Source of the DNA: a virus
DNA: 25,423 nucleotides
Virus record (IMG/VR): IMGVR_UViG_3300034112_001885
Span: 1-25,423 of that record
Reading direction: 5' to 3' (one strand)
Shown here: in pieces, positions 3,149 through 25,423 of the stretch
Layout of the letters: each line of letters opens with the position of its first letter
How positions within the stretch are numbered: the first letter of the stretch is position 1
Notes under the pieces: model-generated
Database searches by the model: none
What the model was told of the DNA's origin: nothing
What the model saw: only the letters and a program-made list of their open reading frames with translations
Position numbers and translations under genes: made by a program

Positions 3149-4884
3149 GCGAAGATGGGGTTATCCAAGAAGTCGTTGATGTCGGATTCGGCGATGCTGA
3201 CCATGGCGCGGTTCATTGCCACCACAGTGGCGACGGCGGCGTCGATCTTGTTTTCCGGGCGTAACTTGCGCGGGAAGATGTTTTCGTTGCGGTCTTCCTT
3301 GACTTCGACGTTGCTGAACATCCAGACGAAGGCGGGGTTGCCGTCGTGGTGGAAGCGGCCGGCGTCGACCAGCGCCTGTATCTCTTTCATCGGCTCGCTG
3401 AGGTAGCGCACTTGCTGTGGGATGTCGACCACTTGAAAGCCTTCGGCGGCGAGGTTGGCGCCGAGCTGCTGGCCGCCCCAGGGGTCTTTGGCGACTTCGG
3501 AAACGACGACGGTTTCCGAGCTGGCGAGGATTTCTTCTTCTATCTGGGTCAGGTCGATCATGTTGCCGGGCGTGGCCACCAGGTAACCGGCATTGACCCA
3601 GGCTTGGTAGTGGGCGTTTTCTGGTTTTTCTACAGCATCGCCTGGCACGAAGTTGCGGCTGATGGCGTAGTAATGCGGCTTGCCGACCTCAGTGCCAGGG
3701 CGCTTGAACAGCCAGACGGCGCTGGCAATATCCTGTTTGCTGGCGAGGTCGAGGCCGATGACGCAGGATTCGCCGTTGAAGTCTTCTAGCTTCAGGCTGG
3801 GGTCGCCGGCCTGCTGGAAGGCGTGCAGGTTGATCCAGGGCGAGGCGGCGGCAACCCAGATGTCGAGGTGCTTGGTTTTGAAGACGTTCTGCTTGCGCGG
3901 GTCGGCGATGGCGTCGCGCTGCTGAGTGCGCAGGAATTCGGCATCGACCGAAACGCCGAAGTTGGGGTTGGCTTTGCGCAACGCTTCTTCGCTGGTCCAG
4001 TCGTCCTTTTCGTCGACGGTGAAGATGATGCCGAAGCGCTGGTCGTTTTCGATGACACCTTCTAGGATTTTCTGCAGCTCCACCTGGTGCTGATAGCACG
4101 GGCCGGAAATGTCGCTGCCGGATGTGGTGATGACCAGCATCATCGGCTGCGAGCGCGCGCCCATGCCGGTCTGCATGGTGTCATACAGTTCGGCGGTTTT
4201 GTGTTCGTGGTATTCGTCGACGATGGCGCAGCTCGGTGACGCGCCGTCGCCCGGCTTGCCGATCACCGGTTCGAATTTGCTGTTGGTCTCGACCACACTG
4301 AGGTTGCTGGCGTTGGGCGTGACGCCGAACGTGGCGCGGAAGCCCGGCGTGGCGCGTGCCATCAGCAAGGCGGGGCGGAAGACTTCCAGCGCCTGGTCTT
4401 GCGAGGTGGCGCCGGAGTACACCTCAGCGCCGAATTCGTCGTCGACGGCGAGCATGTACAAGCCGATGACGCTGGCCAGAGTCGACTTGGCGTTTTTACG
4501 TGGGACGAACAGGTCGACCACGCGGAAGCGGCGCTTGCCGGTGATGCGGTCCACCCAGCCAAAAGCGCTGGCGAGGATGAATATCTGCCACGGTTCGAGG
4601 GTGATTGACTGGCTGCGTGCGGCCCAGTCGCCCTTGATGTGCGGCATCAGCTCGGCAAACTTGCAAATCCGTTCCGCCGGGCGGTAGGCTTTTCCCTTGC
4701 TGTCGACCAATTCCGGGTTGAAGGTGTAGCGGAAGTCGGTGCGGGCGAGGTCGTCCAGGTGACGCTGGCAGGCGAGGCGGTGCCACTTGCAGGCGGGGAT
4801 TTTCCCGGCAACGACATCGGCCGCATAAGCGGTTGCGATGTCGGTGAAGTGGGTGGCGCTGGGGTCGATCACAGCGCGCCCCAT
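3145..4884 (-). CDS. Phage terminase large subunit
   Basis: This 579-residue ATPase/nuclease is the packaging motor. An N-terminal ATPase domain carries a Walker A-like loop, PRKNAKST (about residues 128-135), and a Walker B/catalytic segment, CAIVDEYHEH (about 219-228). The C-terminal RNase H-like nuclease shows the acidic strand IGLDLASKQD (about 376-385). The P-loop lacks a classical GKT and has AKST, which is usual in this terminase family. The frame is open upstream to 5289, but that part is antisense-like and overlaps the small subunit. The ATG at 4884 with an AGGA just upstream gives a 16-bp overlap with the small subunit gene and is preferred. Confidence 0.93.
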   Translation of the reverse strand: MGRAVIDPSATHFTDIATAYAADVVAGKIPACKWHRLACQRHLDDLARTDFRYTFNPELVDSKGKAYRPAERICKFAELMPHIKGDWAARSQSITLEPWQIFILASAFGWVDRITGKRRFRVVDLFVPRKNAKSTLASVIGLYMLAVDDEFGAEVYSGATSQDQALEVFRPALLMARATPGFRATFGVTPNASNLSVVETNSKFEPVIGKPGDGASPSCAIVDEYHEHKTAELYDTMQTGMGARSQPMMLVITTSGSDISGPCYQHQVELQKILEGVIENDQRFGIIFTVDEKDDWTSEEALRKANPNFGVSVDAEFLRTQQRDAIADPRKQNVFKTKHLDIWVAAASPWINLHAFQQAGDPSLKLEDFNGESCVIGLDLASKQDIASAVWLFKRPGTEVGKPHYYAISRNFVPGDAVEKPENAHYQAWVNAGYLVATPGNMIDLTQIEEEILASSETVVVSEVAKDPWGGQQLGANLAAEGFQVVDIPQQVRYLSEPMKEIQALVDAGRFHHDGNPAFVWMFSNVEVKEDRNENIFPRKLRPENKIDAAVATVVAMNRAMVSIAESDINDFLDNPIFA

Positions 4885-5417
4885 TTGTCCTGCCCGGCAT
4901 CCTGAAACAGGCTGGCCTGGCGGTTGTCGCTGGTGGTGACCCGAGCGCGGCTGGCCGGAGAGAGGCCGAACAGCGCCAGGTAGCGGTTCACATCCTCGGC
5001 AGCGCGGCGTCCAACCACCCAATGGTGCGAGTAGGTGAAGTTGCCGTTGGCGGTGCGGATCATGATGCCGTCGCCGCCGGTGTATTCCTCGCCCGCCGCT
5101 TCGGCGGCGGCGCGCTTTTCCTCGGCAGCGGCCATGGCTTTGCTCAGCATGTTCTCGGCCCAGACCATCTTTGCCCAGGCCTGTACGTACAGCACCAGGG
5201 CAGCGCGGTCGAGTTTCGACACCAGGCCGTAGCGCAGTAGCTCGGCGGTCAGGCGCTTCCACTCTTTCTTTGCCTCGGGCCAGATCCACGACGGCGAGCT
5301 GGGGATTTCGACTTCAGGCTTGAACTCATCGAACAAAGTCGCAGACGGCAACTTGCTCGGGTTCCCGCGCAGGATATGCACGTTCGCCGGTAGCGGTTGC
5401 GGTCCACGAGTGCCCAT
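4869..5417 (-). CDS. Phage terminase small subunit, P27 family
   Basis: This 182-residue protein recognises phage DNA and loads the large subunit. The start MGTRGPQPLP and the following helical segment (PEAKKEWKRLTAELLRYG, about residues 47-64) are typical of the P27-type small subunit. The middle holds an alanine-rich helix (about 86-108). A GGGGA stretch lies upstream of the ATG at 5417. It is the first gene of the late head operon and is preceded by a minus-strand terminator (5430-5458), so it needs its own promoter or antiterminated transcription from further right. Confidence 0.88.
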   Translation of the reverse strand: MGTRGPQPLPANVHILRGNPSKLPSATLFDEFKPEVEIPSSPSWIWPEAKKEWKRLTAELLRYGLVSKLDRAALVLYVQAWAKMVWAENMLSKAMAAAEEKRAAAEAAGEEYTGGDGIMIRTANGNFTYSHHWVVGRRAAEDVNRYLALFGLSPASRARVTTSDNRQASLFQDAGQDKWGAL

Positions 5418-5429
5418 TCAGCATTCCCC

Positions 5430-5458
5430 AAAGAAAACGGCCACCCGAAAGTGGCCGT
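5430..5458 (-). terminator. Intrinsic terminator between the HNH and terminase genes
   Basis: A perfect 8-bp stem (5437-5444 with 5451-5458, arm ACGGCCAC) with a 6-nt loop is followed on the minus strand by TTTTCTTT. It stands directly before the small terminase gene. The late head operon would therefore be expressed only with antitermination or from a promoter very close to the terminase start. Confidence 0.75.
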
Positions 5459-5561
5459 GATGATCAAGCGGCGGCGCAGATGAGTACCCCCCACCCTGAT
5501 AACCCCCGCACGTAAAAATGTGTCTACCAGTCCGGTCCTGGCGGGTGGGGCTGTGAAGATT

Positions 5562-5933
5562 TCACCCCCCCCTGCCTGCTGCCGCCTCGCTGGCGGTCTT
5601 GGCCTGGTGGCACTCGACGCAGATCGACTGCAAATTGTCTTCCGCATCCGTGCCGCCCTGCGACTTCTGCCTGATGTGGTCGACCTGCTTTGCTGGTCTG
5701 TACTTGCCAGCGGCCAGGCAGACCTGGCACAAGCCTTTGTCGCGCCTCAGGATGGCATTGCGCAACTTGTCCCACTCCGTGCCGTAGCCGCGTTCGTGGC
5801 GGCTGCCTCTACGGTCATCGGCAAACTTGTTGATCTTCCGGTCTGCCTGATGCGCCTCGCAGTAGCCCGACCCATCCCGCACCAGGGCGGGACAGCCTTG
5901 GTGCCTGCATGGTCTAGCGGGTGCGGTTGGCAT
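5562..5933 (-). CDS. HNH endonuclease
   Basis: This small nuclease (123 residues from the ATG at 5933) carries the HNH fold: a zinc knuckle formed by C69-x2-C72 and C105-x2-C108, the VDHI segment with D85/H86, N100 in the EDNLQ segment and H109 right after the second CxxC. An extra N-terminal cluster (CRHQGC, YCEAH) may bind another zinc. HNH proteins next to the small terminase are common in HK97-type phages, where they help terminase cut at cos or pac sites. No clear ribosome site precedes the ATG; a TTG at 5966 in frame is an alternative start but lies in a terminator hairpin. The gene ends in a run of eight G on its own strand. Confidence 0.9.
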   Translation of the reverse strand: MPTAPARPCRHQGCPALVRDGSGYCEAHQADRKINKFADDRRGSRHERGYGTEWDKLRNAILRRDKGLCQVCLAAGKYRPAKQVDHIRQKSQGGTDAEDNLQSICVECHQAKTASEAAAGRGG

Positions 5934-5944
5934 GGGCGGAATGC

Positions 5945-5976
5945 AAAAAGCCCGCAGGCTAGGCAAGGCGGGCTTT
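5945..5976 (-). terminator. Intrinsic terminator downstream of the antiterminator gene
   Basis: A perfect 9-bp stem (5947-5955 with 5968-5976, arm AAAGCCCGC) with a 12-nt loop continues on the minus strand into five T. It falls between the Q-like antiterminator gene and the HNH gene. That is where an antiterminator would need to act to let late transcription proceed. Confidence 0.8.
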
Positions 5977-6027
5977 GGACGTACTGATTGCAGTTTGGTT
6001 GCTTTTTAGACATTTCGTCGGAGCGTG

Positions 6028-6426
6028 TCAAGCTGCTGCACGAAATTTCTTTTGCATGCGTTCCCGCTCCCACTGCTCTACATCACGGTCTTGCAGCCAT
6101 CCCATGATCCAGATGTGCGCCTGGTGCAGCCGGGTGTACATCGTGTCTCGGCACACGCCAAGCACACGCGCCTTGAACTCTGCGCTGCCGGTCTTGCGGT
6201 AGAACTCCATCACCACGGCAGCCAGTTCGGGGCGTGCTTTGCGCAGGGCCAGCACGCCGGTTTCGATCTCCATCGCCGCCTCGTTGATTTCCTCGATATT
6301 GCCCCGGCCGTGGCTCAACATCGCCTTGGTGTAGTGGCTTTGACGCGGGAAGCCCAACCCGCCATCGTCCCGCCGCGTCGCCCACTCCGCCCAGCACACC
6401 AATCGGTGGTTCATGTAGTCGATCAT
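6028..6426 (-). CDS. Q-like late antiterminator protein (putative)
   Basis: This 132-residue protein resembles the short phage antitermination protein Q family (YdfT-like). It starts MIDYMNHRL, is rich in charged residues, and has a helical C-terminal part (about residues 85-115) that could be a DNA-binding helix-turn-helix. A strong GGAGG site precedes the ATG at 6426; the open frame further upstream overlaps the neighbouring gene and lacks such a site. It is the last gene before a strong terminator and two genes away from the terminase, the classic position for a late switch. Function is inferred from family resemblance and place. Confidence 0.7.
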   Translation of the reverse strand: MIDYMNHRLVCWAEWATRRDDGGLGFPRQSHYTKAMLSHGRGNIEEINEAAMEIETGVLALRKARPELAAVVMEFYRKTGSAEFKARVLGVCRDTMYTRLHQAHIWIMGWLQDRDVEQWERERMQKKFRAAA

Positions 6427-6671
6427 GCTGCCCTCCGTAAACCGTTCAAAACCAGCGAGCCGACCGTAGCCAGTGACCTTGCCGCCTCGCCGCGCAGGGC
6501 GAACCAAGCGCACCAGAAGCGCAGTTCACCCGCATCGTTTGACTTCACCACATCGGCGATTCCGGCGCCCACCTCTGCGGCCTGTGCCGGCGTCCATTCG
6601 TTGAAGCTGATCATCATCGACCGGGTATCCGCGAAATCGCGGCGCAGCGTCTCAAGTTCAGTCATATCCAT
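6423..6671 (-). CDS. Small hypothetical protein in the middle operon
   Basis: This 82-residue protein is not recognised. The first half is charged and helical (TELETLRRDFADTR), followed by a hydrophobic Trp-containing stretch (LRFWCAWFALRG). The ATG at 6671 has a GAGGAA ribosome site, and its stop overlaps the start of the Q-like gene (ATGA), so the two are translationally coupled. It probably acts in the same regulatory step, but nothing in the sequence shows how. Confidence 0.7.
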   Translation of the reverse strand: MDMTELETLRRDFADTRSMMISFNEWTPAQAAEVGAGIADVVKSNDAGELRFWCAWFALRGEAARSLATVGSLVLNGLRRAA

Positions 6672-6861
6672 CGTTCCTCAAAAAAGCGGTCGTGGCCGTC
6701 GCGCAGCCGTGTAGTCACTACCTTGGTCAACCACTGCTCAGTGGTGAGGCCCTGAGCAACGGCCAAACCATCCCCAAACCCAAAAGGGTTCGAGGTGTCT
6801 GACCGTTGCGATCAACCTGCTCGAGCGGAGCCGGCCCATCGCTTTGGCCGTGTGCATTCCA
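6672..6861. other. Non-coding-looking interval with a 16-bp palindrome
   Basis: No convincing gene fills this interval between the small unknown at 6862-7089 and the one ending at 6671. It holds a perfect inverted repeat, ACCACTG-CT-CAGTGGT (6730-6745), and a nearby CTCAG/CTGAG pair. Together with 6862-7093, several frames on both strands stay open, which suggests a constrained or structured region rather than random spacer. A regulatory RNA or leader is possible. Confidence 0.4.
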
Positions 6862-7089
6862 TCAGGCTGGACACACACAAGGGCAGACTATCGGGCCACC
6901 TGCGGCCCCCGTTTCGCGCTCTACCCGCCCCGTCAGGGACACCACCACGCCTGCCGCTGAAACCCGCGTTACGGCCCTGCCAACTTCACCCCCGCGCCGG
7001 TTAACCCTGCTCCTGGTGTTGCTGTACTGCCTGGCATCCCTGCTGGCTGGGAACTCTATGGCGCGGCAAAGCTGGGTCCGCGCCGCCAT
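6862..7089 (-). CDS. Possible small protein after the primase gene
   Basis: A 75-residue frame begins with ATG at 7089, only 4 bp after the primase stop, and reads as an arginine- and valine-rich basic protein (RSRVNRRGGEVGRAV around residues 27-41) ending in CPCVCPA. Tight spacing argues for a real operon gene. No clear Shine-Dalgarno site and strong openness of the opposite strand argue against it. The function is unknown. A structured RNA covering this interval is an equally good reading. Confidence 0.35.
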   Translation of the reverse strand: MAARTQLCRAIEFPASRDARQYSNTRSRVNRRGGEVGRAVTRVSAAGVVVSLTGRVERETGAAGGPIVCPCVCPA

Positions 7090-7093
7090 CGTG

Positions 7094-8029
7094 CTAAACA
7101 GTTGGGCGCTTCGCCTCCCGCTTGACTGCCATCGATATTTCGTGGGCAATCTTCAAATCAATTCGTTGGTAGGTAGAACGGAAGCGCGAATCCTCAATAT
7201 CGGCCAATGCAGCCGCCCTTTCCTGCCGGTAATCGTCCCAATCACTGCCTTGGCATGATGGGTATGCAATGCCGATGCCGACCTTCTGCGCGGCCTCTGT
7301 CGCCTTTTCGATGCCGGGGTTAAACCCCACCCGCTTGGCGGTTTCGTGGTCGTTGTCGGCAGCGATCACCGCCAGACCGTTGCGATCCAGGTAATCCACC
7401 GCATGCATCAGATTGCCGGCGTTAAACGCCACAATCACGCGCGCATGTGGCATCGCCTGAAACAACGTCAGGCCGGTGGCAAAGCCCTCGCAGACCACGG
7501 TGAACACATCGGAATCGCCGATCAGATAGGTTGCACCCGCCACCGGCGCACCCGGCCAGAAACGCTTATCCCCTTCTGGCGAAATGCGCTGGATGCTGCT
7601 GATCTTGCCGCCCAGCAGCATCGGGATAATCAACCAGCCTTCAGAATCCACCCGCAAGCCACCGCAACCGGCCACTTTCAAGCCCTTGGCGCGCAGATAG
7701 GGGTGTGAGCCATGCAACAACTCAGCGGCGCGGTAATGCGCCGTGGCGGCATAGGTGGCAGCCTGCGCAGCGGCGGCTTGTTCGCGCTTGCGGCGGGCGA
7801 TCTCGGCATAATCAATCTTCGGCGCATCGATCTGCGCATCCGGCCGCCAGGTGATCAACTCAGAATGCAGCGCGTAATCCATCGCCCATCCCACCAGACC
7901 ATCATCAGCCAGCTTGAACGAACCGTTCTTCTTCTTTGGGTGATTCACCGTAGGGCAGCGTTGCCACTTGCCCGGCTCAATTGAGCGCGGCTCAAGGCCA
8001 ATGCTGTGCAGGAAGGAACGAAAGTCCAT
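7094..8029 (-). CDS. Phage DNA primase-like protein with TOPRIM domain
   Basis: This 311-residue protein should make RNA primers for phage replication. An N-terminal region with CPTVNHPKKKNGSFKL (about residues 25-40) resembles the nucleic-acid-binding zinc-like part of phage primases. It is followed by a helical linker and a TOPRIM core: the acidic motif VVCEGFATGLTL (about 178-189) and the AADNDHE motif (about 223-229) that bind catalytic metal. The ATG at 8029 overlaps the helicase stop by one base (TGATG); an in-frame GTG three bases upstream is possible. Pairing with the adjacent helicase makes a compact replication module. Confidence 0.88.
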   Translation of the reverse strand: MDFRSFLHSIGLEPRSIEPGKWQRCPTVNHPKKKNGSFKLADDGLVGWAMDYALHSELITWRPDAQIDAPKIDYAEIARRKREQAAAAQAATYAATAHYRAAELLHGSHPYLRAKGLKVAGCGGLRVDSEGWLIIPMLLGGKISSIQRISPEGDKRFWPGAPVAGATYLIGDSDVFTVVCEGFATGLTLFQAMPHARVIVAFNAGNLMHAVDYLDRNGLAVIAADNDHETAKRVGFNPGIEKATEAAQKVGIGIAYPSCQGSDWDDYRQERAAALADIEDSRFRSTYQRIDLKIAHEISMAVKREAKRPTV

Positions 8030-18204: not shown

Positions 18205-18440
18205 ATGAACGTCCCGAACGCATTTACCACGTAAGCCAGACCCAGTTGAGCATTGCGCGCCACTACGGTGGCTGCAAATTCAACGGCGCGGATTACCACT
18301 ATGACGCTGAAAGCGACACGCTGACGCGCATGGATGTCTGGAAAGCGCGCATCGCAAGTAGCAAAGAAGAGGCAGACAAATGGGCGAAGGCTGAGCGTGA
18401 GAAATGGACAAAGGCTCAAGACGGTTTTGCGGGGTTCTAA
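18201..18440 (+). CDS. Small hypothetical protein ending at the first attC-like repeat
   Basis: This 79-residue protein has a beta-like N-terminal part (RIYHVSQTQLSIARHYGGC) and a lysine/glutamate-rich helix (SSKEEADKWAKAEREKW). The stop codon TAA at 18438-18440 lies inside the inverse core of the first attC-like repeat, as is typical for integron cassette genes. The open frame extends upstream to 18114, but the ATG at 18201 overlaps the preceding stop and is preferred. Confidence 0.6.
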   Translation: MNERPERIYHVSQTQLSIARHYGGCKFNGADYHYDAESDTLTRMDVWKARIASSKEEADKWAKAEREKWTKAQDGFAGF

Positions 18441-18498
18441 CGCCTAGCTAACCGGCTGGCGGCATTATCGCCAGTCCGTGTTGAGCGACGTGTTAGCA
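18435..18498 (+). repeat. attC-like repeat A
   Basis: An imperfect inverted repeat: CTAAC (18437-18441) at the left and GTTAG (18492-18496) at the right. The inner pair is GCTAAC/GTTGAGC with one unpaired base, and the central stem is CTGGCG/CGCCAG with a 7-nt loop. This matches the R''-L''-L'-R' plan of integron attC sites, including the extrahelical base. Confidence 0.6.
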
Positions 18499-18555
18499 GT
18501 TTTTTTGAAAAGTCGGCGCTGGCGAGACGGCGGTGCAGGGCGACATGCTTTTGCC
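18499..18555. other. 57-bp interval between two attC-like repeats, no gene
   Basis: No frame is present. Positions 18509-18533 are an exact inverted copy (25 bp) of 19400-19424, inside the zinc-finger gene of the next cassette, so this looks like a rearranged gene remnant. Confidence 0.55.
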
Positions 18556-18623
18556 TGCTAACGCAAAAGTCACCGGCGCAGGCGGGTTTATCGCCTGCGT
18601 CCGCGTTGAGCGACGTGTTATGC
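18556..18623 (+). repeat. attC-like repeat B
   Basis: The left core is TGCTAAC (18556-18562) and the right core GTTATGC (18617-18623). The central stem CGCAGGCG/CGCCTGCG (perfect 8 bp) has a 7-nt loop. The left half matches repeat D (AACGCA-AAGTCACCGGCGC type), and the right half matches repeat A (GTTGAGCGACGTGTTA), so it looks like a hybrid made by recombination. Confidence 0.6.
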
Positions 18624-18645
18624 GTATTTGATGAAAGGATGAGAG

Positions 18646-19014
18646 ATGTTTGATGAACAACCTGATGGCGACCCGCACGGCGAGTGCGCGGCAGAGATTC
18701 ACCGACTGCGCGACGAAGTGGAATACCACAAGGCTGACGCGAAGAGGTGGGCGCTGCAAGCAGTGAAGTTCGACAAGTGGCAGCAAATCGACACGGCCCC
18801 TAAAGACGGCAGGTATTTGATGGTTGGCAACGAAGACGGTGTTTGGGTTGCGTGTTACACCCCGACGTTCCAAAGCGGGTTTCAGCCAGACAACCCTTGG
18901 ATTAGTTTGATGCTCAACCATCGGCATATTGAGAGGGTGAAGCGGAATTACTCTAGCGTACCGACGCATTGGATGCCGCTACCGAAAGCACCAAAACAAT
19001 GGGAGCCAATATGA
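18646..19014 (+). CDS. DUF551-containing protein
   Basis: This 122-residue protein has an N-terminal helical part (AAEIHRLRDEVEYHKADAKR). The rest is DUF551-like: KWQQIDTAPKDGRYLMVG (about residues 44-61), a WVACYTPTF strand and the terminal THWMPLPKAPK (about 107-117). DUF551 proteins are common in phages and have no known activity. An AAGGA-type site precedes the ATG. It is the first gene behind attC-like repeat B. Confidence 0.75.
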   Translation: MFDEQPDGDPHGECAAEIHRLRDEVEYHKADAKRWALQAVKFDKWQQIDTAPKDGRYLMVGNEDGVWVACYTPTFQSGFQPDNPWISLMLNHRHIERVKRNYSSVPTHWMPLPKAPKQWEPI

Positions 19015-19217
19015 CGCCGATCACATTCAAAGGTTATGGTGTTGGCAGTCGCGGAGTGACGCTAATAGCCGAGCGAATCACTCACTTCTACCCAATCGAC
19101 TACAACGGAAATCACGGGACGTGCATCGTGCTTGACACCGGCAAGGAATTAAATGTCGGTGACTGGTGTGATGACGTTGCAAAGACAATAGATTTAATTA
19201 CAGAAGGAGGCCGTTGA
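19011..19217 (+). CDS. Small hypothetical protein of the cassette region
   Basis: This 68-residue, beta-rich protein (MTPITFKGYGVGSRGVTLIA, then TCIVLDTGKELNVGDWCDD) looks like a small barrel domain, but no family is recognised. GGGAG precedes the ATG, which overlaps the DUF551 stop. Confidence 0.65.
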   Translation: MTPITFKGYGVGSRGVTLIAERITHFYPIDYNGNHGTCIVLDTGKELNVGDWCDDVAKTIDLITEGGR

Positions 19218-19218
19218 G

Positions 19219-19533
19219 ATGGGGCCAAGCGCAATAGGCGCACAGCCGCCACCGGAGGACTATGACGAAGAGTGGCTGATGATGCAGGAAGACGAAGAAG
19301 GCGACGAACCGTTTTGCAACTGCACCACGGGCCACAGCATTGAGGAAACGGACTGGAACCAGTGCGATAGCTGCGGGAAACCGATTTACGACGAAGAACC
19401 CGCCGTCTCGCCAGCGCCGACTTTCGCAGATGGGATGACGGCAGAGGACGACAGGCGGTTTCTGGAACTGACCGGCGGCCTGACGCATAACGCAGAGCTA
19501 AGGGGCCGGCCGCTTGCGGACGATCCCGCTTGA
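19219..19533 (+). CDS. Acidic zinc-finger protein of the cassette region
   Basis: This 104-residue protein is very acidic in the first third (EDYDEEWLMMQEDEEGDE) and has a zinc-binding cluster: CNC (about residues 33-35) followed by CDSCGKPIYDEE (about 49-60). The last 20 residues (THNAELRGRPLADDPA) come from the attC-like repeat C, which is translated in frame. GGAGG lies upstream of the ATG. The role is unknown. Confidence 0.65.
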   Translation: MGPSAIGAQPPPEDYDEEWLMMQEDEEGDEPFCNCTTGHSIEETDWNQCDSCGKPIYDEEPAVSPAPTFADGMTAEDDRRFLELTGGLTHNAELRGRPLADDPA

Positions 19534-19547
19534 GCGCCGGGTTAGCC
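19485..19547 (+). repeat. attC-like repeat C
   Basis: Left core GCATAAC (19485-19491), right core GTTAGCC (19541-19547). The inner pair GCTAAG/CTTGAGC has one unpaired base, exactly as in repeat A. It overlaps the end of the zinc-finger gene. Confidence 0.6.
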
Positions 19548-19569
19548 GGCGAGAACAACGGAGACAGAA

Positions 19570-19983
19570 ATGCACACGAATGCACCAGAAGGAATAAGCA
19601 GAAACCACCTGCTTGAGATTGCCAAGAAATGCGGGCTGATTGGCGGGTACCACACCTTTGAAATGCTGGATGCCATTGAAGGGTATGCGCGGGTTGTGCT
19701 GGCTGACAAGGCAGTGCAGGAGGCTTTTGTCGTGGCAAACCAGCACCTGTTAAACGTCGACGCTGGTAGGACGGCAAGCGGCGAGGGACTGCACGCATGG
19801 CTGCGCCGAGAGATGCCGGAAGGTACTGTGATTGGCGACCCTGACTGGTGGGCGACACGAATCCACCGCGTAGCACTGGCGGAATTGACGGCTAACGCAG
19901 AAGTCACCGGCGCCGAAGGCGTCCGCGTGGACTGCCGGGTTAGAGCGCTGGTAACTACGGAGAACAAGACATGGAACTATTGA
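19570..19983 (+). CDS. Hypothetical protein of the cassette region
   Basis: This 137-residue protein is helical at the start (RNHLLEIAKKCGLIGGYHTF, then EMLDAIEGYARVVLADKAVQ) with a later WLRREMPEGTVIGDPDWW segment. The terminal ~25 residues (LTANAEVTGAEGVRVD onward) are translated from attC-like repeat D, so the original gene probably ended there and now reads through. GGAGAC precedes the ATG. The function is unknown, though the style is that of small phage accessory proteins. Confidence 0.65.
   Translation: MHTNAPEGISRNHLLEIAKKCGLIGGYHTFEMLDAIEGYARVVLADKAVQEAFVVANQHLLNVDAGRTASGEGLHAWLRREMPEGTVIGDPDWWATRIHRVALAELTANAEVTGAEGVRVDCRVRALVTTENKTWNY
19890..19945 (+). repeat. attC-like repeat D
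   Basis: Left core GGCTAAC (19890-19896), right core GTTAGAG (19939-19945). The inner pair AGTCAC/GTGGACT again has one unpaired base, and the centre is GGCGCC/GGCGTCC-like. It lies within the reading frame 19570-19983. Confidence 0.6.
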
Positions 19984-20171
19984 ATTACGCACGGCGCTGC
20001 AAGAAGAAAACCGGCCACGAACGGCACGATACGCTGCACGCCGCCGACAACAACGCGACATTCTGCGGAAAGGAGCTTAACGAGATGTGGTTCCTTGAGT
20101 CGAATGCTGGCCTTGAGCCGGATGACGTGTCTTGCAAAGAGTGCAGGCGGCTCATGCGCTCTAACGCATGA
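19971..20171 (+). CDS. Small cysteine-containing protein, last of the cassette region
   Basis: This 66-residue basic protein has FCGKEL and VSCKECRRL segments (about residues 29-60) that may form a zinc site together with N-terminal His and Cys residues. GGAG precedes the ATG. Its stop lies directly behind an isolated attC-like left half-site (20159-20168). Confidence 0.6.
   Translation: MELLNYARRCKKKTGHERHDTLHAADNNATFCGKELNEMWFLESNAGLEPDDVSCKECRRLMRSNA
20159..20168 (+). repeat. Isolated attC-like left half-site (E)
   Basis: CTCTAACGCA matches the left end of repeats A-D, but no GTTAG right core follows. The array therefore seems to be cut off here, 54 bp before the excisionase gene. Confidence 0.4.
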
Positions 20172-20221: not shown

Positions 20222-20452
20222 ATGGCCAAACACATCGAACTAAGCCGCTGGCTGGCCGACAACTTCGACCCGCCGCCGCACATCAGCACCGCACGGCGCT
20301 GGGTCAGCCAGGGGCGCATCTACCCGGAACCGATCCGCGCCGGCGCGAAAATCTACGTGTTGCCAACGGCGATGTATCGGAAGCAAACTGACCAACCCAA
20401 GAGCATCCTAGATCATGTCCGTGAGCAGGCCGCGCAAAACAACCAGCGATGA
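20222..20452 (+). CDS. Excisionase-like protein
   Basis: This 76-residue protein reads like the Exc/Xis winged-helix family: an N-terminal helix ELSRWLADNF, the recognition part TARRWVSQGRIYPEPIRAG (about residues 23-41) and AKIYVLP. It should bend attachment-site DNA and steer the integrase toward excision. It lies just upstream of, and overlaps, the integrase gene by 38 bp, the usual layout. Confidence 0.85.
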   Translation: MAKHIELSRWLADNFDPPPHISTARRWVSQGRIYPEPIRAGAKIYVLPTAMYRKQTDQPKSILDHVREQAAQNNQR

Positions 20453-21551
20453 TCTACCCGCAAACCTCTATGAACAGCGGCCGGGGTACTTTGTTTACGT
20501 CAACCGCCTGATTGGGAAAGCCATCGCAGTGGGCCGCGTGCCGCGCAAGGACGCGATCAAGCAGGCCATCGAGGCCAACCAATACGTTGAGGCCGAACAA
20601 GCACAGACAGACATCCTCGCAAAGATTCAAGCCAGCACCGGCGCCACGCTGGCGGACTGGCTCAGCGAATACGCCAAGATTCAATCCAGACGCAACCTGG
20701 CCGCAACAACCCAACGGCAATTAAACTGGAAGCGCAGCGCACTTGAGGCCAAATTCGGGCGGCGAACACTGGCCGAACTCGCCGCGCCGCGCATCTGGGC
20801 GGACTGGATCGACGGCATGATCGAAGCCGGCAAACACGGCGCGGCGGTGAACTGGAAAAGCTACGTCCAGGACGTGTGGCGCGAAGCCATCGCCCAGGGA
20901 TGGGCAACCACCAACCCCATCATGGTGCTACGCAGCGTCCCGGCCGGCGTCAAACGCGCCCGCCTGACGCTCGACGGATTCCGCGTCATCTATGCCGCTG
21001 CCGCCAAGCATGACCCGTGGCTGCAACGCGCCATGGAACTTGCCATCATTACCGGCCAAAGGCGCGAAGACCTGGCCGCGATGCAGTTCCGCAAGCGTGC
21101 CGACGCATCGGCATGGATCGAGTCCGGCACGCTCTACGTGCGACAAGGCAAGACAGGCGCACAACTCGCCATCCCGCTCGATCTGCGCCTTGACTCGCTC
21201 GATCTGACGCTATCCGATGTGGTGGCGAAATGCCGCGATGCCGTGGTTTCACCCTGGCTACTGCATCAGATACGGCATCAATCCAGAGTAGCACCAGGTG
21301 ATGCGCTATCGCTCAACCGGCTGACAAAGGGATTCGCCAAGGCGCGCGATTCCGTGCCGCGCTTCTGGCCTGAGGGCATCGAACCGCCGACCTTCCACGA
21401 AATGCGCTCACTCTCGATCAGGTTATGGACCGATCAGGCCGGCGCCGAATTCGCCCAGGCGCTGGCCGGTCACAAGGACGCAGCAACGACTGCCGTTTAT
21501 CGGGATGTTCGCGGGTCTGAGTGGACTAAAATCATTATGAAAACAGGCTAG
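20415..21551 (+). CDS. int: Phage integrase, tyrosine recombinase
   Basis: This is a 378-residue lambda-type integrase. The N-terminal arm-binding part (about residues 15-60) is followed by a helical core-binding domain (about 78-165) and the catalytic domain with all key residues: R216 in TGQRREDL, K246 in RQGKTG, H328-E-M-R331, H353 in AGHKD and nucleophile Y362 in VYRD. The protein appears intact. It lacks the additional helix region of integron integrases that lies between the catalytic boxes, so it should not be an IntI. It is followed by terminators and the probable attP. Confidence 0.93.
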   Translation: MSVSRPRKTTSDDLPANLYEQRPGYFVYVNRLIGKAIAVGRVPRKDAIKQAIEANQYVEAEQAQTDILAKIQASTGATLADWLSEYAKIQSRRNLAATTQRQLNWKRSALEAKFGRRTLAELAAPRIWADWIDGMIEAGKHGAAVNWKSYVQDVWREAIAQGWATTNPIMVLRSVPAGVKRARLTLDGFRVIYAAAAKHDPWLQRAMELAIITGQRREDLAAMQFRKRADASAWIESGTLYVRQGKTGAQLAIPLDLRLDSLDLTLSDVVAKCRDAVVSPWLLHQIRHQSRVAPGDALSLNRLTKGFAKARDSVPRFWPEGIEPPTFHEMRSLSIRLWTDQAGAEFAQALAGHKDAATTAVYRDVRGSEWTKIIMKTG

Positions 21552-21589
21552 CTTATAGTGTGCGAATAACGAGCAAATAATAAACACTC

Positions 21590-21617
21590 CCCGCAAAGCC
21601 AATATCCATGCGGGTTT
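21590..21617 (+). terminator. Weak terminator behind the integrase gene
   Basis: CCCGCA (21590-21595) pairs with TGCGGG (21609-21614) around a 13-nt loop, followed by TTT only. It may equally be part of the attachment site. Confidence 0.4.
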
Positions 21618-21715
21618 GACAGGAGTTAGTAAGATTAGCACTCAAATATACATAAAAACGTACACTTTAATAATCAAATCAACAGCTTAAACATACAACA
21701 CAGCACACAATAAAC

Positions 21716-21757
21716 GCGCAAAACAGGCACGCGCCCATAGCCGGCGCGGTTTTGTGC
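21716..21757. terminator. Bidirectional terminator between integrase and retroelement operons
   Basis: A long two-part hairpin: outer arms GCGCAAAAC (21716-21724) and GTTTTGTGC (21749-21757) with one mismatch, inner arms CGCGCC (21730-21735) and GGCGCG (21743-21748). T-tracts occur on both strands, as expected where two operons converge. Confidence 0.65.
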
Positions 21758-21867
21758 AAGGTCTTAACAGTTTTGCTGCGAATCAAGCCATTGGATTAAG
21801 GGTAGTAGTGCGATAAGTTCTTCTGCGGTCTGGTGTTGGTTAACGTAAAAAGTCAGCGGGTGGATCA

Positions 21868-22308
21868 TCACAACCCAAGCGAAGTGCGTTGATCCCGCCC
21901 CCATTGCCGCACGCCTTCGACAAATTCGCCGAACACGGTCATGGCCTGCACTTCATCGCTAGTGGGTTGATACACCCCCATCGCCGCGCCAACACCGATG
22001 CGGGCGAACTTAAGTTCATCCTCCAATGGATAGGCGTCGCGGATCATGGTGCGCATGCGCTCATCAATCAACCGACAATGCGGGCTGGCGGCAATGATTT
22101 GAGCGCGCAGGGTGGCATCCGGCGTCACGCTGGCGATGCTGTCTACGATTTCGGCGTGCTGCGCGACTGGCAGGGCGCCGGCTTCGGGCAGGCAAACGTA
22201 TGTGGTGCCATCCGCCAAGGTGGCGAGTTCGGTCGCGCCATCAGGCGCGGCAAGTTCACGAGTAACCTGGGCGTTGATAAACTTTCGGTAGGAGACGATA
22301 GAGGGCAT
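21868..22308 (-). CDS. Small hypothetical protein at the end of the retroelement operon
   Basis: This 146-residue protein is not recognised. The start MPSIVSYRKFINAQVTRE is followed by a beta-rich part and a helical half (RMRTMIRDAYPLEDELKFAR, then VFGEFVEGVRQWGRD). An AAAGGA site precedes the ATG, the same style as the capsid gene. Its start overlaps the end of the reverse transcriptase gene by 53 bp, so it belongs to the same late tail/retroelement operon. A tail-assembly or retroelement accessory role is possible but not shown. Confidence 0.7.
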   Translation of the reverse strand: MPSIVSYRKFINAQVTRELAAPDGATELATLADGTTYVCLPEAGALPVAQHAEIVDSIASVTPDATLRAQIIAASPHCRLIDERMRTMIRDAYPLEDELKFARIGVGAAMGVYQPTSDEVQAMTVFGEFVEGVRQWGRDQRTSLGL

Positions 22309-23257
22309 GGTGATTTCCTTTCAGGTAGCGCAGCAGGTGCTGCAAAGAGTGGGTTTTGCGTGCGTGGCCCAAAACACTGATCACGCTATCGAGCCTCCCG
22401 CGTTTGGCGGCGGCTCTTAGTGTGTAAAGGCTGTGCCGGCGGATGAAGCGCTTGCTGGCCCAGGTGCGGTAGCCGACGAAGTTGATGCCGCGTGTGACGC
22501 GGGCCAGGGTTGAGCGTGATAGCGTGAGGCGCAGGCCGGCCAAGAACACTATCACCCGCTCTCGTGCGGTCACGGCGTTCGCGCGAGTCAGGCCGAAAAG
22601 CACAAAATCATCAACATAACGGCAGTAACGCAGCGGCTTGATTTCGCGCACAATGAAGTGGTCGAGCGGGTCTAGGTAAAGCAGTGCGTAAATCTGGCTG
22701 AGTAGATTGCCGATGGGGATGCCGACTGGTTCGCCGTGGTCTGCAAAGGCCATCATCAGATCAACGAAGCGGCGATCTTTAATCTTGCGCTCAATCAATG
22801 TGCGCAGAATATCGCGGTCGATGCGATAGAAAAATTTGCGGATATCGAGCTTGAGCGTGTAGCTGTCCGGCGCACAAACCTGCATTGCCTCCTGCGCATA
22901 ATCAGCGGCCTTGTGCGTGCCTCGCCCGACTCGGCAGGCGAACGATTGGTCAATGAAGCCCCTGTTGAATATCGGGTAGATCTCGGCGTAGATGGCATGT
23001 TGCACCACTAGGTCGCGGAAAGCAGGTGCGTATATCTGCCGCGTTTTTGGTTCGTAAACGGTGAAGCTGTAGTAGGGGCCGGGGCGATATGTGCCGCCGT
23101 GCAATTCGGCGTGCAGTGCGTCCAGGTTGTGTGCCAAGTGCTTTTCGAATTGAAAGCAGGCGCGTTTACCGCGCTTGTGGCGTGCGGCGGCATGGAATGC
23201 CGCCAACAAAGACGCCGGTGTAAACGTGCGCTCGAATAAATAGCCAGCGCGTTTCAT
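22256..23257 (-). CDS. Reverse transcriptase of a diversity-generating retroelement
   Basis: This 333-residue reverse transcriptase copies the template-repeat RNA into adenine-mutated cDNA. Polymerase motifs are in order: KLDIRKFFYRID (about residues 136-147) with the first catalytic Asp, GIPIGNLLSQ (179-188), which is the DGR-type form of motif 4, RYVDDFVLF (213-221) with the YxDD active site, and INFVGYR (258-264). Length, lack of maturase or endonuclease domains, and an adjacent Avd-like gene and TR/VR pair identify it as a DGR enzyme rather than a group II intron or retron. The ATG at 23257 lies about 140 bp from the template repeat. Confidence 0.95.
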   Translation of the reverse strand: MKRAGYLFERTFTPASLLAAFHAAARHKRGKRACFQFEKHLAHNLDALHAELHGGTYRPGPYYSFTVYEPKTRQIYAPAFRDLVVQHAIYAEIYPIFNRGFIDQSFACRVGRGTHKAADYAQEAMQVCAPDSYTLKLDIRKFFYRIDRDILRTLIERKIKDRRFVDLMMAFADHGEPVGIPIGNLLSQIYALLYLDPLDHFIVREIKPLRYCRYVDDFVLFGLTRANAVTARERVIVFLAGLRLTLSRSTLARVTRGINFVGYRTWASKRFIRRHSLYTLRAAAKRGRLDSVISVLGHARKTHSLQHLLRYLKGNHHALYRLLPKVYQRPGYS

Positions 23258-23399
23258 GGGGCCAGACTTTCGAGAATGACAGAATCAAACCTACTAGAAA
23301 GGCCCATGCAAACCGATTTAGCCGAGGCAAAAGCCTCGCGCCGGAAAGCGTCTCCCTTGGTTCCACTTCGATCTTTCGATCCGTGAGGTGAAGCCGAGT
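23258..23399 (-). ncRNA. TR-to-RT spacer of the retroelement RNA
   Basis: 142 bp lie between the 3' end of the template repeat and the reverse transcriptase start. In studied DGRs a spacer of about this length downstream of TR folds and primes cDNA synthesis with the RT-Avd complex. A GATC-GAAA-GATC hairpin with a GNRA-type loop is visible (23370-23381). A frame is open through TR and spacer but is probably not translated. Confidence 0.6.
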
Positions 23400-23509
23400 C
23401 CGAGCGAAACCCAACATTGTCGTTGGAGTTGCCCTGCGCATTGTTGAGGTTCAACGCCCAAACGCCCGCACTGGACGAATTGTTCCAATTCCCGCCGGCA
23501 ATCGGGCAC
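23400..23509 (-). repeat. DGR template repeat (TR), 110 bp
   Basis: This segment aligns without gaps to 23946-24055 and differs at 13 positions. Every difference is an A in the minus-strand TR (8 A to G, 4 A to C, 1 A to T); 9 other A and all 88 non-A positions are unchanged. The A-containing codons are mainly AAC/AAT, which can change into many residues but not into stop codons. TR is the invariant donor, transcribed with the spacer as part of the retroelement RNA. Confidence 0.96.
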
Positions 23510-23512
23510 ATG

Positions 23513-23914
23513 TTAAGACGCTTCCCGTTTGTCTAGCGCACGATCAGCAACTACCCAGCCGCCGATCATGCGCCCTAACTCGTCCACCATCCGCGAGATA
23601 ACTAAGTAGCGGTGTTCGCCGTCTTTCTCGGGGTGGTGGTGTCCATCCTTGAACTCAAAATAACCGAGCGCATGCGCCAAGCGCAGCAGCATGCGCAGCT
23701 GCTCGTGGCGTACATCGAGGTTGGTTATTGCGGTTTTTTTGTGATAGCGCTTTTGCGCCTCCACGATGAAGCTGTAGGTGTCATAAGCCGCGCGCCGAAT
23801 CTCCAGCGCAAGACCGTGCTTCTCGTGTTTCGGGAAGTGATTGAGATACAAATTCATCTGACGTGCAAAGTCCGTAAATTTGCTATCCAGCCTAGCTTCG
23901 TCGTGAAGGCCCAT
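23513..23914 (-). CDS. avd: Avd-like accessory variability determinant
   Basis: This 133-residue, mostly helical protein has four helices separable by eye: ARLDSKFTDFARQMNLYLNH, GLALEIRRAAYDTYSFIVEA, LDVRHEQLRMLLRLAHALGY and YLVISRMVDELGRMIGGWVV. It is rich in basic residues, as expected of the pentameric four-helix-bundle Avd that binds the DGR RNA and reverse transcriptase. The ATG at 23914 is chosen; the frame is open upstream to 24055 but that part only re-reads the VR. It lies between VR and TR, the common DGR order. The ribosome site is weak. Confidence 0.85.
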   Translation of the reverse strand: MGLHDEARLDSKFTDFARQMNLYLNHFPKHEKHGLALEIRRAAYDTYSFIVEAQKRYHKKTAITNLDVRHEQLRMLLRLAHALGYFEFKDGHHHPEKDGEHRYLVISRMVDELGRMIGGWVVADRALDKREAS

Positions 23915-23920
23915 CGCTAT

Positions 23921-23952
23921 CGCTCGGGCCGTCAGAGGTACAAGGCCGAGCG
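23921..23952 (-). promoter_or_regulatory. Inverted repeat at the 3' end of VR
   Basis: On the minus strand CGCTCGGCC (from 23952) and GGCC-CGAGCG (to 23921) form a stem with one bulged base around a 13-nt loop that holds the target stop codon. Hairpins or cruciforms just downstream of VR promote retrohoming in studied DGRs; this one overlaps the initiation-of-mutagenic-homology end. Confidence 0.6.
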
Positions 23953-25287
23953 AAACCCAACAGTGGCGTTGGAGCCGCCCCGCGCATCGTTGAGGCCCAA
24001 CGCCCAAACGCCCGCACTGGACGAAGCGACCCAAGTCCCGCCGGCAATCGGGCACGAATCCGCCGTGCTGAAATCGTTTAGGGTGTCATTGCCGAACATG
24101 TTTGACCCGCCTGCCACTAGCGGAACGCCCGCGCCGGTCATCTGCCATGCGGTGCCGCTGGTGGCGGCGCTGAGCGCTTGGCTGGCGCTGCCCATCGTTA
24201 ATGTGCGGTCGGAAAAATTCAGCGCATAGCCGGTGAAGTTGTTCATCAGGCCGAGATCGTCATACAGCGCGGCTAGGCCGGTTGCGCCCCACAGATCAGT
24301 CGCCAGGGCGTTGCCGCCTGTCACGTTGCGCATCGCCGTGGCGGTTTTCAGCACATAAAAATTGCCGACTGCGGGATCGTTATTGTTTACCGTCAAGCCC
24401 GGGGTGATCTCCCACATGCAGCCATTAAGATCTGCCACGCCACAGTTCTGCCCGTTGTGTGTGGTGCGCGCGAACAGGTTGGCGCTACCGGTTTTGCATG
24501 AGTTGTTGGCGGCGTAGCCATCCCACACAAATGTCAGCATGGCATCCTGCGCATCGCTCAGTGCGTTGTTGTTGCAGCCCTTCGGGAAGTTGCTGGTGCT
24601 GCTGGAATACCAGGCATTAAATGTGGTGCTGGTGCTGGATTGGCCGTGTGCCAGGGAAAGCAAAGCCAGCGCTTTGAAAATGAACAGCGAGTTGCAGAAG
24701 AAGTTCGCGCCGCGCGTTTTTGCCGCTGCAATTGCGCCGGCATACGTGTTTGCGGGTGCGCCGGTGAGGCCGTTAAACGGATTATGTGCAAGGGCACTGC
24801 TGAGCGGGTTGCCGTTACGCAGGCTGCTGGCAGTGCCAGCGTTGTTGGTGGCGAGGTATTTATCGACAAACACGCCGGATTTGATTGCGCCGCCATCGTA
24901 GAACGCTCGGTGCAACGCATAGCCGGCTGAGGTGGCGGAGGCGATGCTGGCGTAGGTGGAAAACGGCTTGATGTCAACAATGTTGATCGCCAGCCCGTTT
25001 ACCCCGGTGCCGAACTTGTAAAAAAACGCCGGCATCCAGACCATGATGCTACCGTCCGAAAACTGATAATTTCCGTAATTGTCGGACGCCGGATCGCGCG
25101 TGCCGGACAGCTCCACCATGCCGGTGGGCAGGGCCTCTGGACAGATGCCAACACCGAAGCCGCGCTGGCCGGGAAGGCCGATATCATTGACGCCGCCGGA
25201 ATTGCCGGAACCGATGGCGATGCCGTTAGGAAAATAGACTGGTTGGCCGTCCTTGCCGGTGATGCTGCGTAAGATCAGGTTGCTCAT
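23932..25287 (-). CDS. DGR-diversified tail / receptor-binding protein
   Basis: This 451-residue protein is the diversification target. The N-terminal part is glycine-rich and tail-fibre-like. The middle and C-terminal parts read as a C-type-lectin/formylglycine-enzyme-like fold with DLNGCMWEITPGL and the final CPIAGGTW...VGFRSALYL. VR covers residues about 412-448 of 451. The nine residues that differ from TR-coded ones are 418, 420, 421, 431, 434, 436, 438, 441 and 442; N433 and N440 can also vary. GGAG precedes the ATG at 25287. By analogy with Bordetella phage Mtd it probably binds the host surface. Confidence 0.92.
   Translation of the reverse strand: MSNLILRSITGKDGQPVYFPNGIAIGSGNSGGVNDIGLPGQRGFGVGICPEALPTGMVELSGTRDPASDNYGNYQFSDGSIMVWMPAFFYKFGTGVNGLAINIVDIKPFSTYASIASATSAGYALHRAFYDGGAIKSGVFVDKYLATNNAGTASSLRNGNPLSSALAHNPFNGLTGAPANTYAGAIAAAKTRGANFFCNSLFIFKALALLSLAHGQSSTSTTFNAWYSSSTSNFPKGCNNNALSDAQDAMLTFVWDGYAANNSCKTGSANLFARTTHNGQNCGVADLNGCMWEITPGLTVNNNDPAVGNFYVLKTATAMRNVTGGNALATDLWGATGLAALYDDLGLMNNFTGYALNFSDRTLTMGSASQALSAATSGTAWQMTGAGVPLVAGGSNMFGNDTLNDFSTADSCPIAGGTWVASSSAGVWALGLNDARGGSNATVGFRSALYL
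23946..24055 (-). repeat. DGR variable repeat (VR), 110 bp
   Basis: This is the recipient copy at the 3' end of the target gene. The last 17 bp on the coding strand (23962-23946, TGTTGGGTTTCGCTCGG) are identical to TR and end in a GC-rich stretch, fitting the initiation of mutagenic homology (IMH). The TR copy is bordered differently beyond both ends, so the 110-bp limits are sharp. Confidence 0.96.
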
Positions 25288-25423
25288 AAAATGCTCCAGG
25301 TGGAATGGTCTTCAAGGGTAATGGTGGTGCCGGCTGCGATTTCCAGCGGGCCGGCGCTGTAGGCGTTGAAGTGGCTGGGGATGGTGGTGTTTTCACTGGC
25401 CACGCGGGGGTTCATGCGGATCA
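25284..25423 (-). CDS. Phage tail-associated protein, C-terminal part
   Basis: This frame enters from the right edge and ends with a stop overlapping the start of the variable tail gene (ATGA). The visible 45 residues (RMNPRVASENTTIPSHFNAY, then SAGPLEIAAGTTITLEDHST and WSIL) resemble the end of small conserved phage proteins found before tail-fibre genes. It shows that the retroelement operon continues upstream into the tail genes. Confidence 0.7.
   Translation of the reverse strand, partial: IRMNPRVASENTTIPSHFNAYSAGPLEIAAGTTITLEDHSTWSIL

Follow-up and report, generated by a model that had tools for sequence, protein, structure and literature searches.

The 25,423-nt stretch of viral DNA analysed here, IMG/VR record IMGVR_UViG_3300034112_001885 from position 1 to 25,423 (hereafter the window), carries at its right end, on the minus strand, a diversity-generating retroelement (DGR) arranged in the order target gene, avd, template repeat (TR), spacer and reverse transcriptase (RT) gene. 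We regard it as close to certain that the element is intact and naturally active and that it belongs to a temperate phage of siphovirus-like type, with Proteobacteria as probable hosts. As judged from contig sequences, the element is active in nature, because contigs with an identical RT differ from the window at those positions of the variable repeat (VR) that face TR adenines, and hardly elsewhere. The initial annotation of this DNA had claimed a complete DGR between 22256 and 25287 without visible defect, including an Avd-like gene and an RT with the motifs GIPIGNLLSQ and YVDD. Each part was located within those limits, with target, avd, TR and RT following one another on the minus strand (Table 1); no broken reading frame was found among the DGR genes, and both motifs are present in the RT translation.

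Natural variation of the VR among near-identical contigs

After a scan of IMG/VR with the RT, the best 80 of 285 loci were kept. Among these, seven contigs (L002-L008) encode an RT 100% identical to that of the window, the next being 91% identical. These seven differ from the window at 93 of the 753 VR positions compared, and 91 of the differences are at TR adenines, with the TR unchanged in all seven contigs; the variation at TR adenines over a constant TR, which the initial annotation had proposed to look for in related genomes, was thus observed. Outside the VR, a single difference was detected in 32,195 aligned positions, and it is at position 20162, where the cassette locus (see below) has its edge. 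These counts cover aligned spans only: L002, L003 and L005 depart from the window at the cassette locus, and L008 at the attachment site. The window and the seven contigs carry six different VRs between them; in the rest of the sequence aligned, 3.8-5.7 kb, they are identical. As one more phage DGR this is a clean case: contigs from nature that vary almost nowhere but in the VR let adenine mutagenesis in the wild be read directly.

Other groups of near copies were compared in 32 pairs, those within a group not being independent. For L012, L014, L015, L016 and L017, all 123 VR differences over nine of the ten pairs were at TR adenines, with the flanks unchanged, and the VRs of the tenth pair were identical. 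The corresponding counts were 38 of 38 for the three pairs of L024-L026, 74 of 77 for the six pairs of L074, L075, L077 and L078, and 127 of 135 for eight pairs with differing flanks; five further pairs showed no difference at all.

No finding contradicts a DGR; several observations weigh against an intact element that mutates adenines only and is still at work. L002 and L006 carry one and the same VR, and VRs are also identical in six other near-identical pairs with unchanged flanks. A T-to-G change away from TR adenines, at VR position 48 (counted from 0), is common to L005 and L007, which are equal over the 75 nt of the VR present in L005; in the seven contigs it is the single departure from change at adenines. 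Some differences away from TR adenines occur in the other near-copy groups as well. In addition, the match of Avd to NF033474 (7.2e-20) reaches 71.2 bits and stays below the cut-off of 80, and the hairpin that follows the VR, described below, falls short of significance in two (L018, z -1.43; L027, z 0.52) of six sequences that were folded. The pairs with identical VRs would suit a decayed DGR, in which the frames are intact but the machinery is dead and the VR differences are old. Old differences would, however, come with changes outside the VR, and six VRs were found among eight contigs otherwise alike, so that decay is very improbable. Phage tail-tip genes often recombine, and the VR might vary through ordinary recombination or selection between phages instead of adenine mutagenesis. 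Linked changes outside the VR and at non-adenine sites would then be expected, whereas the aligned flanks are identical and all but two of the 93 differences are at TR adenines; we consider this explanation even less probable than decay.

As a side observation, the kin contig L121 stops within the first few bases of the VR (target residue 413), as assemblies tend to do at hypervariable spots.

Table 1. Location of the DGR parts and of two neighbouring genes in the window
Feature	Position	Strand	Remarks
Target gene	23932-25287	-	451 aa, open reading frame (ORF); hypervariable C-terminus; last gene of tail module
VR	23943-24055	-	End of target gene; 13 mutagenised adenine positions plus one fixed difference
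IMH-like block GTTGGGTTTCGCTCGG	23946-23961	-	Adenine-free; same in TR and VR
Post-VR hairpin	23908-23930	-	GATA loop (GRNA consensus); avd start codon inside
avd	23513-23914	-	133 aa; Avd family matches
TR	23397-23509	-	113-nt direct repeat of VR
Spacer RNA, TR to RT	23258-23396	-	139 nt; conserved covarying structure
DGR-type RT	22256-23257	-	333 aa; motifs IGNLLSQ, YVDD
146-aa ORF	21868-22308	-	Overlaps RT end; no Pfam or PHROGs family
Phage tyrosine integrase, lambda type	20415-21551	+	PF00589, PF09003
IMH, initiation of mutagenic homing.

Adenine bias and 3' boundary of the TR/VR pair

The 113-nt direct repeat of TR and VR, 88% identical, was detected by a repeat search blind to adenine and is by far the longest repeat within 20500-25423. 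When the adenines were left open, a 58-nt TR pattern was found with at most 3 mismatches at two places in the window, the TR and the VR, and in 0 of 100 shuffled sequences. All 14 mismatches between the repeats are at TR adenines, of which there are 23 (8 changed to G, 5 to C and 1 to T in the VR); by hypergeometric count, a random placement of 14 mismatches among 113 positions would put all of them on these 23 with a probability of 3e-12. A chance repeat as the source of the pair was ruled out by the position of these mismatches and by the shuffles.

At the last TR adenine, the TR reads GACT and the VR GCCT in 65 of the 65 kin loci where this site is readable (three further kin loci are without the tetramer), and GCCT also faces GACT in the window and all seven identical-RT contigs. 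Being constant, this mismatch seems to be a fixed mark lying past the 3' limit of transfer rather than a mutation, which leaves 13 of the 14 to be ascribed to mutagenesis. An adenine-free sequence, GTTGGGTTTCGCTCGG, separates the fixed site from the last mutated adenine. A common adenine-free block followed by a fixed A/C difference, here in all 65 loci, matches the arrangement expected of IMH and IMH*, and the fixed mark of this DGR is comparable to the IMH/IMH* difference of BPP-1. From these alignments, the 3' limit of transfer should lie in the IMH-like block, 23946-23961, and the element yields in this way a precise 3' boundary.

With the fixed site excluded, the TR adenines of 61 distinct pairs were kept in 722 cases and changed to G in 502, to C in 220 and to T in 151. 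In the window, the 22 mutable adenines fall in 13 target codons, none of which can turn into a stop; computed in the window frame, about 9.8e12 protein sequences are possible from the 13 variable codons. The kin TR/VR scans left A mismatches free and charged others -4, and the pooled counts of mismatches at A (1,020 of 1,065 and 433 of 446) therefore lean towards A; the TR/VR pair of the window and the seven-contig comparison are independent of these scans. The IMG/VR scan concerned 80 loci, of which 8 with less than 700 nt upstream were left unscanned and 4 of the other 72 (729-760 nt upstream) gave no pair, leaving 68 loci with pairs. The second scan took in 30 of 35 genome loci plus 6 phage or plasmid loci; three of these 36 were too short and two were pairless.

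Reverse transcriptase and Avd

The RT matches phrog_1423 at 9e-96. Of the solved chains it matches 8ub7 best (E 4.5e-47), a chain labelled 'Reverse transcriptase' that we take to be the BPP-1 enzyme. The initial annotation had asked for placement of the RT in a phylogeny. In a 36-row maximum-likelihood tree, the window RT falls in a DGR group of 22 rows, including Bordetella phage BIP-1 and Vibrio phage VHML, and a branch with support 100/99 separates this group from 8 group II or other RTs and 6 retron-like RTs. The motif (I/L)GxxxSQ is present in 14 kin rows and 6 phage or plasmid DGR rows, and QGxxxSP in 5 group II rows. In this tree, L207 was assigned to the DGR group by its motif, and the retron rows were chosen by matches to NF038233, of which, among those kept, only L214 and L215 exceed the cut-off. 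L213 (wrong frame), L218 (no frame) and the duplicates L209, L221 and L222 were dropped, and L210-L212 were never included.

That the RT is a retron or group II intron enzyme next to an unrelated repeat is the least probable explanation of all, to the point of being negligible: its best NCBIfam match is indeed a group II profile, at 112 of 300 bits, far below the cut-off, but it has IGNLLSQ against QGxxxSP in the five group II rows, the support of its DGR group is 100/99, and Avd is present. Taken as single candidates, a group II intron RT was rejected by the motif, the TIGR04416 score just given and the place in the tree, and a retron RT by an NF038233 score of 34.5 out of 235 bits and the same DGR clade. 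Avd matches PF22296 at 1.1e-16 (61.7 bits against a cut-off of 40) and phrog_3206 at 2.6e-21, in agreement with the Avd-like gene of the initial annotation.

The span of the 146-aa ORF that overlaps the RT end (21868-22308) is preserved in the closest relative, L009, with 86.6% DNA identity in the aligned stretch.

Target protein and tail module

The target protein matches phrog_5302 (tail protein) at 4.8e-08 together with three PHROGs of unknown function, and no Pfam family was found for it. By sequence, it gave no match to PDB chains at E up to 1 or to plasmid records at E 1e-5. An AlphaFold2 model based on 51 aligned kin reached a predicted local distance difference test score (pLDDT) of 84.9. 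The solved fold nearest to this model is the Thermus aquaticus DGR variable protein (Z 28.9, root-mean-square deviation 3.4, 299 residues aligned), followed by BPP-1 Mtd (Z about 12) and, lower, by formylglycine-generating enzymes (FGE) and relatives. The target is thus predicted to have a C-type lectin fold of the FGE subtype. Because of the BPP-1 precedent and this predicted fold, it is plausible that VR variation changes the host range.

Upstream of the target, the window holds 136 bases only. The contig IMGVR_UViG_3300035662_000164 equals the left 5,524 bases of the window (100%) and its right end except for the VR. Its gene order starts with TerL, portal, capsid, neck protein (phrog_5) and tail terminator (phrog_347), and continues with tail tube (PF18906), tape-measure protein (1,551 aa), a protein of 298 aa and, just before the target, a protein of 155 aa resembling a tail-fibre end (phrog_5342, 4e-08); target, avd, TR and RT follow. 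In the initial annotation the DGR was aimed at a tail protein and lay in a tail operon. The former agrees with the matching contig, in which the target ends the tail module; the latter holds in so far as neck, tail tube and tape measure precede the target in that contig, and not for the window itself, which ends before them. Ten ORFs were scanned in the stretch from capsid to target, four of them without a PHROG match. A siphovirus-like tail is likely, because no sheath match was found among these ten.

Post-VR hairpin and spacer RNA

BPP-1 requires a GC-rich hairpin 3' of the VR, with the loop consensus 5'-GRNA, as shown by Guo et al. (2011, PMC3240598). In the window, the hairpin GGCCCGAGC-GATA-GCGATGGGCC (23930-23908) is located 12 nt past the VR, and its 3' arm includes the avd start codon. 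The stem is imperfect, pairing being broken by one inner mismatch, and the fold has a z of -2.18, with 4 of 200 shuffles as good; among five kin folded alongside, three gave clearer hairpins than the window. A scan for GRNA loops only, covering 53 distinct loci, gave in 43 of them a stem that no more than 1 of 100 base shuffles could match. The stems vary in sequence across loci, with pairing retained in most. With the avd start codon inside 23908-23930, hairpin folding and avd translation may interfere.

The spacer between TR and RT was aligned (alignment A2) for the window and 38 loci picked from the 68 with pairs, near-copies, L009 and L054 being excluded. The 39 distinct spacers align with invariant motifs, and RNAalifold gave 32 pairs, of which 20 were changed on both sides. 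On this structure, which was derived from the very sequences counted, 94.7% of the cells are paired. The covariation score reaches 0.515, compared with 0.177 for shuffles, none of the 500 scoring as high, and it falls to 0.06-0.10 when the partners are slid by 1-3 columns.

The spacer model R1, spanning 23402 to the RT start codon, can serve to find such elements. Among loci outside the alignment, it matched 29 of 35 kin genome loci and phage Bise, with E 2.3e-5 or better, at the RT start. None of seven stretches with non-DGR RTs was matched, and none of five stretches from BIP-1, VHML, BalMu-1, a Helicobacter prophage and a Fischerella plasmid. For these five distant members of the DGR clade, either the spacers differ or the model is too narrow. 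R1 also yielded two weak matches (E 0.18 and 0.81) away from the DGR. No Rfam 15 family was found for the spacer, with one chance match elsewhere in 23200-24100 (E 3.5). The role of the spacer is known in kind: according to a 2026 report (PMC12875486), the spacer of BPP-1 takes up a fold, recruits bRT-Avd and provides the adenine used for priming. The new part is the comparative evidence for this lineage.

Proposed cycle and comparison with known systems

By analogy with BPP-1, the avd-TR-spacer-RT transcript would fold in its spacer and be bound by RT and Avd, and the RT would then turn the TR into cDNA, misincorporating opposite adenines. The mutated copy would replace the VR from the IMH block to the start of the repeat and leave the TR unchanged, a product that is seen in the contigs. 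The target so gains a new C-terminal stretch with up to 13 variable codons and no stop, as found in the sequences compared. The tip with its lectin fold may bind a structure on the host surface, and variants may differ in the cells to which they attach.

For the comparison with BPP-1 (Mtd/Avd/bRT), the BIP-1 record AY526909 was used. Common to both systems are a TR/VR pair before the RT (10 of 11 BIP-1 mismatches at A), a spacer before the RT, a lectin-fold phage target and the same RT clade; a GRNA hairpin past VR and an IMH are likewise described for BPP-1 (PMC3240598). In contrast, the BIP-1 RT is about 34% identical to that of the window and its spacer is unmatched by R1. The T. aquaticus prophage protein TaqVP (5vf4) resembles the target in fold (Z 28.9) and in having its VR at the C-terminus, but it is 21% identical in the fold alignment and has 381 residues against 451. 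The closest RT, 58% identical, among the matches listed from 50,697 phage records is that of Pseudomonas phage Bise (OR683401), which also has a TR/VR pair (9 of 9 mismatches at A) and a spacer matched by R1. Bise differs in having baseplate genes upstream, and its record is outside the 17 that match the target (P0001).

The best target match in the same records is 32% identical over 92% of the length. Because of these RT and target values, the element is, by sequence identity, no copy of one among the 50,697 phage records, in a search that may leave out near-copies of the window. The DGR class, the layout and natural activity are already known. Roux et al. (2021, PMC8144416) report more than 30,000 metagenomic DGRs, 50-75% with recent activity. 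Among them, as in our case, are DGRs with which phage lineages seem to vary their attachment proteins.

Lifestyle and host of the phage

An excisionase (PF07825) and the integrase occupy 20222-21551. In L008, the phage sequence ends after window position 21634 and is followed by an MlaE permease gene (L008:6622-7025, 404 nt). This end is likely the junction of an integrated copy, and the attachment site is probably just 3' of the integrase. The phage looks temperate because it has excisionase and integrase genes and because L008 runs into the MlaE gene. Kin of the window integrase was found in one of seven related contigs, at 29%.

About half of the RT kin in 35 genome contigs are from Proteobacteria, going by the names in the titles. 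The closest are from Rhodocyclaceae (74%) and a member of Rhodocyclales (72%), and further kin carry Campylobacterota and Desulfobacterota-type names, with single Omnitrophota and Cyanobium records. Searched against 369 genomes from the class to which the Rhodocyclaceae kin genome belongs, the MlaE flank of L008 gave two short matches (32-39 nt; E 7e-4 and 9e-4). Of 399 genomes from the order of that kin genome, one matched the target, the kin genome itself. The host probably belongs to the Proteobacteria.

An integron-like cassette locus

Sites resembling attC were detected in minus orientation at about 18434-18499, 18553-18624, 19484-19549 and 19886-19949, within a locus at 18434-20170. The first cassette (19899-20162), next to the excisionase and integrase genes, is not the same in all contigs of this phage, which agree in everything else over the stretches compared. 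The sequence switches at 19898|19899 and 20162|20163; on the minus strand, both points fall in a GCG|TT core. At the left edge, L237, L238 and L005 are the same as the window up to 19898 (0 differences over 5,198 bases for L237 and L238, and over 684 bases for L005) and then diverge individually after GGCTAACGC. No RT was seen in L237 and L238, whose link to the DGR phage is this 5.2-kb identity. At the right edge, L224, L225 and L005 are the same as the window from 20163 over 3.8 kb up to the VR, and have other sequence ahead of AACGCATGAG; L230 carries the cassette of the window. Four sequences were found at each edge, which makes four to six cassettes, because only L005 among the differing contigs spans both edges.

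We put forward, tentatively and with slightly more doubt than belief, that the phage diversifies two spots, one by DGR adenine mutagenesis and the other by exchange of the first cassette of an integron-type array at an attI-like site beside its excisionase and integrase, without an IntI of its own. In such an exchange, a host IntI or a new activity would do the work. Three of the five junction cores fit GTTRRRY in full. Other observations speak against integron recombination: a strict attC script passes sites in L005 and L226 and none in the window, single-box patterns are not enriched in the window, and the cassette ORFs with a likely ribosome site are on the plus strand, opposite to the attC direction. 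No integron integrase was found: the window integrase matches no NCBIfam model, and the TIGR02249 cut-off was exceeded in 0 of 9 related records, which are fragments. An alternative is that the cassette differences arose by ordinary recombination at short AACGC repeats.

Phage attC clusters without IntI have been reported (Qi et al. 2023, PMC9892861). Turnover of cassettes within one phage was not found among the publications listed, as far as titles and the openings of abstracts tell. The cassette variation is less ordinary than the DGR; should it be true integron recombination, the phage draws on the integron gene pool within one near-clonal population.

Cassettes were also noted in other phages. 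The kin phage contig L243 (61.9 kb) contains, at 3501-7234, a homologue of the left-flank gene together with small cassettes, several in number and parted by attC-like repeats; a 56-nt unit occurs in three copies, one of which diverges half way. Another phage (L226, L227, L228 and L231) has a single cassette with the right junction AACGCATGAGACACGTCAC, the same as in the window; its left-flank gene is 87% identical (L239-L242, from the same contigs), and it departs from the window soon after 20197.

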